A stretch of DNA of 64,000 nucleotides from Pseudomonadota bacterium (GTDB lineage Bacteria > Pseudomonadota > Alphaproteobacteria > GCA-2746255): assembly GCA_040752895.1 (NCBI GenBank), contig JBFMHN010000001.1, forward strand, positions 413,213 to 477,212. The letters are read 5' to 3'. Below are positions 31,039-48,002 of this stretch, in pieces. Every line of letters begins with the position of its first letter. Within the stretch, counting starts at the first letter, position 1. The position numbers and the translations under genes are program-made. The notes beneath the pieces were generated by a model that was not told the DNA's origin, did not search any database, and saw only the letters and a list, made by a program, of their open reading frames with translations.

Positions 31039-32565
31039 CTAGCTCTTTGCCTTTTTTACCGCTTTCTTTTTCGCCTTGGCTGCCGCCGTTTTCGGCTTGC
31101 CGGGTTTGGCGCTTTTTTCCTTCTTCCCGGCTATCTTTTCCATAGTGGCCTGGACTTCGTTTATTAACTCATCGGGCGAGATGTTGCGAACCCTGATCTT
31201 CACCTTCTCGAGAAGAAACCGGACGACCTTGTCCTCGAAGAGAGGTGCCAGCAGCCGCTGCATAGCTTCGGAATTCTGCTGATAGAATTCGAACACTTGT
31301 GCCTCATGGCCGGGGTGGCGGCGCGCTTCGAGACCAATCGCGTCGTTGATGTCCTTCTGGGAAAGGGAGATGCTATTTTTTGAACCCACCTCGGAAAGCA
31401 AAAGGCCCAGGCGGACCCGACGTTCGGCAATCGCACGATATTCCTTTTTCAAGGTTTCGTCGTCCTTGCCTTCGAATTCGTCTTCCTGCGCATGGCCATG
31501 GTCGTGGTCATGGTCGTGGTCATGATCGTGGTCATGATCGTGGTCGTGGTCATGGTCGTGGTCATGATCGTGGTCGTGGTCATGATCGTGCGCATGGCCG
31601 CGGCGCTCCTTAATCTGCGCCCAGATCGATTCGAACTCCGCGTCCACCGCCCCCTGCGGCAGATCGAAGGGATGCCCTTCTGCCAACGCATCAAGGCATT
31701 CCCGTTTTTCGCGCACGTAAGCAACGTTCTTGTATTCCCGCTCGAGGCTTTCCCGCATCTCCTTGCGCAGCTCGTCCAGGGTTTCGACCCCGAAGGCCTT
31801 GGCAAGCGTGTCGTCCACCCCAACCGGCACGCGTTCGCGCACTTCCTGCACCGTCACGTCGAAGTGTGCCTCCTTGCCGGCCAGTTCCTTCGATGGATAG
31901 GGATCTGGGAAGGAAACCACCACGACGACGCTCCCGCCGGCCTCGGCACCAATCAACTGTTCCTCGAAGCCGGGAATAAAACGGCCGGAGCCAAGTTCAA
32001 GCTGATGCCCCTGGGCGGCGCCACCTTCAAACGGCTTGCCGTCCACCCTGCCCAGGAAATCAATGACGACGAGGTCTCCCTCCTGCGCCGGCCTCGCCTT
32101 GGCAAGGGGCTGGAAACGGCGCTGGCTGGCGGCGGCGTTTTCAAGCGCCTTCGCCACGTCCTCCTCGCTAACGATGGGCTCAAGCCTCTCGATTTCGATC
32201 TTCGAGAAATCCATGAAGGCAATTTCAGGAATAAGCTCGACGGTTAGCGTGAATTCCAAGTCCCTGCCATCGGGAAAGGCCGTGATCTCGGCATGGGGCT
32301 GCATGGCGGGTCTTAGGCTACGGTCTTTCAAAAGTTTTTTTGCGGTGTCCGTAAGAGTCTTCTGGACGATTTCCGCTAACACCGACTGGCCGTACTTGCC
32401 GCGAACCAACGACATTGGCACGTGGCCCGGCCGAAATCCCGGGAGGCGCACCGTCGCACAAAGCTCCTTCAGCTTCATGTCGACTTGTTTTTCCATATCG
32501 CCCGAAGGCACGATGACTTTGAATTCGCGTTTCAGGCCTTCGGCCTGTGTCTCCGTCACTTCCAT
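31039..32565 (-). CDS. tig: Trigger factor with a (His-Asp)15 insertion
   Basis: Ribosome-associated chaperone and peptidyl-prolyl isomerase for nascent chains. 508 residues from ATG 32565 ([15 protein letters not shown]), about 60-80 more than usual. The ribosome-binding motif is seen as GFRPGHVP (43-50), the FKBP-type domain spans about 160-245, and the helical arms follow. The oddity is at residues 324-359: GHA, fifteen His-Asp dipeptides, then HGHA, inserted in a helical arm region after QIKERR. The C-terminus has a Lys/Ala-rich tail (about 30 residues). The synonymous codons in the repeat are mixed (CAC/CAT, GAC/GAT), so the amino-acid pattern seems selected. It heads the tig-clpP-clpX series. 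Confidence 0.95.
31494..31592. repeat. His-Asp coding tandem repeat in tig
   Basis: Fifteen 6-bp units alternate GTC-GTG/ATG and ATC-GTG on the plus strand, partly organised as 12-bp blocks. In the tig frame they encode alternating Asp and His. Third-position variation interrupts perfect repetition. Confidence 0.95.
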
Positions 32566-32623: not shown

Positions 32624-32708
32624 TGGTGCGGGCGGAGGGATTTGAACCCCCACGACTTACGTCACCAGAACCTAAATCTGGCGTGTCTACCAGTTCCACC
32701 ACGCCCGC
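32624..32708 (-). tRNA. tRNA-Leu (anticodon TAG)
   Basis: 85 nt including encoded CCA, with the long variable arm of a class II tRNA. The acceptor pairs GCGGGCG with CGCCCGC; the anticodon arm CCAGA-TTTAGGT-TCTGG gives TAG. It is 58 bp upstream of tig on the same strand. A -10-like TATAAG lies about 50 bp upstream of it (32757-32762, minus strand). Confidence 0.97.
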
Positions 32709-32912: not shown

Positions 32913-33200
32913 TTAAGAAACGTATTCCGTATAGCGTTCCGTATAGCGTTCCGTGAAAGACGTCAAAGCCAGCATGCGCGGACCATCTTCCACGTCGCGA
33001 TTGGCACGGCGGATACGCACCTGATACGTCACGTGAGGAATGCCGTAGGAATCGGTTCGGACGGAAAGCACTCGCGCCGTCTCTATGATGGTGCCCACGT
33101 GCGGGCAACGGAAGATGTTGCCGGCTTCGATGTACGACGCAGCGCCGTTGTAACCGTTGTGGCCGTTGTGGCCGTATAATTCTTTCAATTTCAGATTCAT
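32913..33200 (-). CDS. Small protein of unknown function with internal tandem repeats
   Basis: 95 residues; I do not recognise it. From ATG 33200 (GAGAG upstream) the protein begins MNLKLKELYGHNGHNGYNG and ends ERYTERYTEYVS; both ends come from short in-frame tandem repeats. The middle (FRCPHVGTIIETARVLSVRTD, YGIPHVTYQVRI) looks like a compact beta-rich domain with normal codon use, which argues for a real gene. There is no signal peptide or membrane helix. It stands alone between nnr and tRNA-Leu. Overlapping readings in other frames are less protein-like. Confidence 0.5.
   Translation of the reverse strand: MNLKLKELYGHNGHNGYNGAASYIEAGNIFRCPHVGTIIETARVLSVRTDSYGIPHVTYQVRIRRANRDVEDGPRMLALTSFTERYTERYTEYVS
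32925..32954. repeat. 12-bp tandem repeat, 2.5 copies
   Basis: The unit TTCCGTATAGCG repeats head to tail and encodes the TERYTERYTE end of the small ORF at 32913-33200. Confidence 0.9.
33144..33179. repeat. 9-bp tandem repeat, about 3.5 copies
   Basis: Units of GCCGTTGTG with small changes. On the minus strand they encode the GHNGHNGYNG stretch near the start of the small ORF. Confidence 0.85.
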
Positions 33201-33322: not shown

Positions 33323-33356
33323 AACGAAAGTTCAGAGAGAACGAAAGTTCAGAGAG
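33323..33356. repeat. Perfect 17-bp tandem duplication
   Basis: AACGAAAGTTCAGAGAG occurs twice without a gap in the 186-bp gap between nnr and the small ORF. It could be slippage or a paired protein-binding site. Confidence 0.9.
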
Positions 33357-47771: not shown

Positions 47772-48002
47772 TTACTCGGTCGGGGCCGCCGGTTGGTCCA
47801 TTTCTTCTTCGCTTGGCTGTTCTTCGCTGGTGGCAGGTTGTTCGCCTCCCATCATCTCTTCCGCGCCCTCTTTCATCATTTTGGCGCCTTCTTCCATTTT
47901 TTTGGTAGCATCCTTGTCTTCGCAAGCGGCAAGACCAACGGCAAGACCAACGGCAAGACCAAGAACCAGCCCCAGCCGTTTCAGATAAGAAAGAACGTAC
48001 AT
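47772..48002 (-). CDS. Small Met/Glu-rich lipoprotein
   Basis: 76 residues from ATG 48002; GAAGGGGG precedes it. The signal peptide LGLVLGLAVGLAVGLAAC ends in a lipobox (LAAC), so Cys is predicted to be lipidated. The signal core is partly made of a 12-bp repeat (GLAV units). The mature part is a short charged helix (KKMEEGAKMMKEGAEEMMGG) and an acidic, Pro-rich tail. No family recognised. A perfect -10 (TATAAT) is upstream. Confidence 0.75.
   Translation of the reverse strand: MYVLSYLKRLGLVLGLAVGLAVGLAACEDKDATKKMEEGAKMMKEGAEEMMGGEQPATSEEQPSEEEMDQPAAPTE
47928..47963. repeat. 12-bp tandem repeat, 3 copies
   Basis: GGCAAGACCAAC repeats three times (last base changed) and encodes the GLAV units of the small lipoprotein's signal peptide on the minus strand. 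Confidence 0.92.

Follow-up and report, generated by a model that had tools for sequence, protein, structure and literature searches.

The trigger factor gene and its His-Asp tract

The stretch of DNA analysed here (the window, 64,000 nucleotides) covers positions 413213-477212 of the first contig of a 2.29 Mb draft genome that is 99.87% complete, and carries on its minus strand tig, the gene for trigger factor (TF; Table 1). TF is the first chaperone encountered by most bacterial nascent chains and, to our knowledge, is not counted among metal proteins. A tRNA-Leu gene (32708..32624) lies upstream of tig, and clpP, clpX and lon lie downstream. The initial annotation tied this neighbourhood to metal status; since 30 of the 80 loci sampled have clpP no more than 3 kb away from tig, the arrangement is ordinary synteny and is uninformative about any coupling of metals to proteolysis. 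The protein is a complete TF in every respect tested, because its three Pfam domains are all present above the cut-offs (Trigger_N, 3.6e-36; FKBP_C, 5e-15; Trigger_C, 2.1e-29) and its ribosome-binding signature, defined as GFRxGxxP (PMC5722895), is intact. Its C-terminus is rich in Lys and Ala and bears no His tract.

Table 1. Features of the window trigger factor, by position in the window.
Feature	Position	Strand	Remarks
tig, trigger factor (TF)	31039..32565	minus	ATG at 32565, stop ends at 31039; 508 aa; Pfam; fold match 1w26
Ribosome-binding signature GFRPGHVP	32416..32439	minus	residues 43-50; matches GFRxGxxP, intact
FKBP-type PPIase domain	31849..32094	minus	residues 158-239; Pfam
Arm1 first helix	31576..31656	minus	residues 304-330; AlphaFold2 model
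Whole His-rich segment GHA-(HD)15-HGHA	31489..31599	minus	residues 323-359
(HD)15 tract	31501..31590	minus	residues 326-355; 6-bp unit CAYGAY, higher-order period 30 bp
Disordered Arm1 tip loop (predicted)	31462..31575	minus	residues 331-368; block mean pLDDT ~47-53 over residues 331-360
Arm1 second helix	31378..31461	minus	residues 369-396; AlphaFold2 model; bears the conserved stretch

What sets this TF apart is the segment GHA-(HD)15-HGHA, with 18 His and 15 Asp, which had been described as sitting in an otherwise normal TF; the translation bears this out, with a single correction, in that the segment had been assigned to residues 324-359 and in fact begins one residue earlier (G323, H324 and A325, then 15 HD pairs, then H356, G357, H358 and A359). 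Its codons are mixed for both residues (CAC 9 and CAT 9; GAC 11 and GAT 4). In the Tandem Repeats Finder output for the window the HD array ranks highest, with scores of 125-156 against 72 for the next best repeat, and its best period is 30 bp (3.1 copies, 91%). Perfect short tandem repeats were also seen at 32925-32954 (12 bp x 2.5), 33323-33356 (17 bp x 2) and 47927-47962 (12 bp x 3). A search of the 2.29 Mb genome with a 15-bp HDHDH pattern returned 15 matches, of which 14 overlap one another within the tig tract, and the reversed control returned none; by this search the genome has no genuine HD run besides the tract. The other match (C2:360901) lies antisense within pstC and was set aside as due to chance.

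It is very improbable that the tract itself reflects chance, coding on the opposite strand or an error of assembly. An antisense frame is indeed open at 31492-32247 on the plus strand (251 aa, with a Val/Met-rich VVM start), but it mirrors the in-frame CAYGAY array, of which we consider it a by-product, and it is tig that is the conserved gene. Chance is further opposed by the near absence of matches to the reversed-control patterns. As to assembly, the length of the contig and the agreement of the tract's flanks with those of congeners argue against a chimera, and the array, at ~96 bp, is shorter than ordinary sequencing reads.

An AlphaFold2 model, built from a 47-sequence alignment (mean pLDDT 89.5), predicts that the tract is a disordered hairpin loop joining the two helices of Arm1, and not part of a helical arm as had been proposed. 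In the model the first helix takes in just two or three HD pairs at the start of the tract, and the tract stands immediately ahead of the conserved AERRVRLGL helix. The best match among solved structures is E. coli TF (1w26; E 2.4e-31), with modest TM-scores (0.51/0.59) that we put down to hinged domains. Both proteins have the three domains, the GFRxGxxP signature and the Arm1/Arm2 architecture, whereas the short loop at the Arm1 tip of the E. coli protein contrasts with a disordered His-Asp tract of ~37 residues in the window TF. The HMMER match to 1w26 stops at E. coli residue 323, near the Arm1 tip. Arm1 of E. coli TF, a protein present in cells at ~50 uM, spans residues 302-360. At its tip, residues 323, 331, 335 and 336 are sensitive to the ribosome-binding domain when TF rests as a head-to-tail dimer, and next to the tip lie both the dimer contact and the client cradle (PMC5722895).

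Recurrence of His-rich Arm1 loops

In the three congeners compared the tract is absent, and their loop, which contains no His, reads RR[EQ]QQ...EDEFE. Their TFs are 65-70% identical to the window TF over the first 323 residues and 60-66% identical past the loop. A FastTree phylogeny of 197 TFs, computed with the arm and tail columns left out and to be taken as an approximate tree of a non-random set, joins the window sequence and the three congeners in a fully supported set of four. The tract was thus probably gained recently within the genus, most simply in a single event. Because the native flank is common to the window TF and its congeners, their sequences indicate that the native loop segment was replaced in place rather than that the gene was imported.

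His-rich loops occur at the identical Arm1 site in TFs of many other alphaproteobacterial families. A 27-bp HD-run pattern found matches in 65 of 385 alphaproteobacterial genomes, and its reversed control found almost none. Arms with at least eight His were found in 11 families (f1, f35, f58, f83, f97, f107, f109, f113, f133, f135 and f240), and arms with fewer His in three (f60, f69 and f121), in a TF sample that is non-random, since many members were picked by likeness to the window TF or by a match to the HD pattern. In f1 the window TF alone has a long His arm, and in f240 the long arms are those of L311 and L312. A short GHDH or HDHNH motif occupies the site in practically all Rhodobacterales read. 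Examples of His-rich arms are those of L132 and L309 (EHDHAHAHCNGDCGADH) and the arm HDHSHDHAGHDHAGHDHEGHDHEGHDH; a named carrier is L010 from Kordiimonadales bacterium IMCC3096, apparently the same sequence as G199 (f83). Many of the arms are irregular, such as HDHEHGH and HAHCNGDCGADH, or have Glu, Gly or Cys among their residues (HDHEHEHEHGHEH; EHDHAHAHCNGDCGADH; GHDHAGHDHEGHDH), with Cys standing among the His in L309 and in L164 of G277 (QDHVHDENCDHGG). The mixture of Cys and His in L309 (G071:C2:202300-204500), which comes from a 0.9 Mb genome, and likewise that in L164, is a more classical composition for a metal site.

Within clades the His arm is kept: it was found in four of four cases in the order of G237 and in 24 of the 43 good genomes in that of G214, and 8 of 9 were pattern-positive in the order of G085. 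On the TF tree, whose rows are not a random sample, the presence of a His arm requires at least 12 changes of state, of which well supported branches force at least eight; for long arms the minimum is 16. These counts do not tell gain from loss. The His-rich sequence that has repeatedly filled the Arm1 tip, and that probably binds Zn or Ni, has less the look of a random repeat than of a metal-binding addition acquired time and again. A phylum-wide search of 398 genomes for the arm, with patterns tuned to HDH followed by RRV..LG, found TF arm matches in Alphaproteobacteria alone. Four matches outside the class (f197) were rejected, their other frame reading, by eye, as a FliI-like protein and not as a TF.

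Insertions without His also occur at this loop in other lineages, in 12 of 63 lengthened arms, so that the Arm1 site is permissive. Where lineages have no His at the site, the loop is often rich in Asp and Glu. In eight further TFs it is the C-terminal tail that is rich in His, and a His arm is missing from all eight. The tails include HDHDHD runs at or near the extreme end of the protein (L025, L065 from Sphingomonas, L012 from Parvibaculum, L117 and L217) and His/Cys tails of the CGHDHH type in Sphingobium (L029, L038 and L047).

Slippage and selection

Every repeat unit of the array is a multiple of 3 bp, so slippage or unequal exchange would lengthen it in frame. It is therefore natural to consider that a 6-bp repeat simply expanded in a permissive disordered loop, with the frame kept, and was tolerated without any function. 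We regard this account as unlikely, if serious. It draws on the perfect array with its 30-bp periodicity, on the insertions of other composition at the same loop and on the lack of the tract in all three congeners, which would allow a young neutral expansion in the window species. Simulation lends it further weight: when a mixed 12-bp seed was grown neutrally, the resulting arrays were equally heterogeneous and still pure HD (for example 3957 of 5986 at a low mutation rate), while growth of a pure seed rarely reached the heterogeneity of the window array. The initial annotation had taken the variety of third-position codons as a sign of selection on the window array. That argument fails, because such variety arises readily when a mixed 12-bp seed expands under neutrality, and the case for selection on the window array by itself is weak.

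The comparison across lineages tells against pure slippage. Of the residues in the pooled tracts, 430 are His and 295 are Asp, against only 77 of any other kind, and the His codons are split between CAC (210) and CAT (220). In 14 orthologue pairs aligned from DNA alone, the His and Asp codons show 93 differences at third positions against 26 at first and second positions (p = 1.6e-23 against a neutral share of 1/3), and a codon alignment of 15 pairs gave 94 synonymous against 40 replacing differences; both comparisons are subject to ascertainment, in that a tract which decayed would drop out of the set. Where an arm is no longer as regular as the array, it still keeps its His, sometimes with Cys, and has Asp, Glu or Gly between. 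Slippage of one hexamer cannot yield such irregular arms with Glu, Gly and Cys. The same composition thus recurs at one site across many families and is retained over the long term through codon turnover, and for selection on the His-rich arms across lineages the sequences make a strong case. Neutral slippage had been expected, in the initial annotation, to show itself in close relatives without the tract or with random lengths that break the frame; the first was found in the congeners, whereas the TFs of many other families have a His-rich loop at this site that has stayed in frame.

A putative metal-binding loop

The proteins that host HD runs elsewhere in Alphaproteobacteria bear on the function of the tract. 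Hosts were identified for 49 HD runs, at the places for which sequence was fetched. Twelve of them are TFs, ten with the run in the arm and two with it in the tail, and ~31 of the 37 others are metal proteins, assigned as such by Pfam or by inference. The Pfam assignments are 13 CobW GTPases, two UreE, two NicO, one ZnuA, one cation-efflux (CDF) protein and nine nitrile hydratase subunits (eight alpha and one beta); one host with a cobW domain was read by us as HypB, and two ABC ATPases with His-rich tails were taken as ZnuC-like. The remaining hosts are two FtsX/MacB permeases, an RNase E, a DUF3500 protein and two proteins with no Pfam match. In an RNase E/G (L109:1027-3027) an insertion in the N-terminal part breaks the usual N-terminal domain. 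Nitrile hydratase alpha subunits with an N-terminal HD run (L099, L108, L112, L120, L123, L124, L226 and L227) turn up again and again among alphaproteobacterial genomes, and the run may possibly serve the loading of cobalt or iron. That HD runs concentrate in metal proteins, and not in arbitrary linkers, is a further point against neutral slippage.

Short peptides of the same pattern are known metal ligands. The HDHDH motif of PacL1 binds Zn with a KD of ~3-6 uM and does not bind Mn (PMC9374683), and in venom peptides VDHDHDH, which binds Zn(II) and Cu(II), serves as the primary site for Zn (PMC9472272). Since most hosts of HD runs are metal proteins and both motifs bind Zn, the most likely function of the tract, by analogy, is weak, multivalent and exchangeable binding of divalent metal, probably Zn. 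The loop might alternatively act as an electrostatic or pH-sensitive bristle, a polyampholyte that changes contacts with clients or the ribosome, for example by shielding the cradle or through a charge shift near pH 6-7, any metal binding being incidental. Such a role would suit a tip next to both the dimer contact and the client cradle (PMC5722895), as well as the acidic character that is kept at the site, which lineages without His often show as Asp/Glu-rich loops. We nevertheless hold it to be improbable: it is specifically His that the alternate positions keep, and some arms, those of L309 and L164, have Cys as well, both of which fit metal coordination better than charge, and the majority of the other HD-run hosts are metal proteins.

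The reading that we favour, at a probability of roughly 0.6, is that of an ordinary ribosome-docking TF whose Arm1 tip has been replaced by a metal-binding HD loop, born of slippage and retained by selection. The loop corresponding to E. coli TF residues ~323-336 would have been swapped for the disordered His-Asp tract, which could bind several divalent ions, most likely Zn2+ and possibly Ni2+ or Co2+, with low-micromolar and fast-exchanging affinity. A short HDH-type seed may have arisen in the permissive loop, and slippage or unequal exchange in units of 6, 12 or 30 bp, as the repeat structure suggests, would then have lengthened it in frame. Selection would keep the His-rich composition in the carrier lineages, for which the orthologues, rather than this genome alone, provide the evidence. 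With 18 His at its arm tip, an abundant TF might serve as a metal buffer or sink beside the ribosome. Because the ribosome-binding domain of the partner docks at the Arm1 tip in the E. coli dimer, metal occupancy may also modulate the resting dimer of TF.

Several chaperones and metal proteins offer partial parallels. SlyD, which the initial annotation had brought forward, is an FKBP-type metallochaperone with a His/Cys-rich C-terminal tail (PMC7840056). The comparison holds as a functional analogy and not as homology: both are FKBP-type PPIase chaperones with a disordered His-rich segment resembling a metal-binding one, but the tail of SlyD is C-terminal, at a non-homologous site, whereas the window tract lies in the substrate-binding domain of TF (Arm1, residues 323-359), and SlyD is a small protein of FKBP and IF domains, unlike the three-domain TF that docks on ribosomes. 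Nearer to SlyD in layout are the alphaproteobacterial TFs whose C-terminal tail is rich in His (L012, L025, L065, L117 and L217). Helicobacter HspA, a GroES with a His/Cys-rich C-terminal extension (PMC7840056), is likewise a general chaperone with a lineage-specific metal-sequestering extension, but it is a different chaperone, and its extension is C-terminal, linked to Ni and free of HD repeat units. PacL1 of Mycobacterium has the same HDHDH ligand pattern in its C-terminal DLHDHDH motif; it differs in being a small membrane partner of a P-type ATPase, with one motif in place of many in tandem. The COG0523/CobW GTPases, metal chaperones with His-rich loops (PMC2770081), are the proteins that most often carry HD runs in these bacteria, yet they are GTPase metallochaperones unrelated to protein folding. 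Metal-binding extensions of chaperones are therefore already known; new here is a putative one at a new place, recurrent, and in a chaperone not known for such. None of the open-access papers searched was found to describe a TF rich in His.

A more far-reaching proposal, which we offer as speculation and think rather doubtful, is that in many Alphaproteobacteria TF doubles as a reservoir and sensor of Zn (or Ni) at the ribosome. Metal loading of the Arm1 tip would shift TF between resting as a head-to-tail dimer and binding the ribosome as a monomer, and would so couple co-translational folding to metal status, the module having been gained repeatedly at the Arm1 tip or at the C-terminus. The tract would be a case of a slippage-prone repeat turning into a conserved functional module, and if a loop of metal ligands has indeed been gained repeatedly at one spot of TF, metal homeostasis would be linked to co-translational folding in these bacteria.
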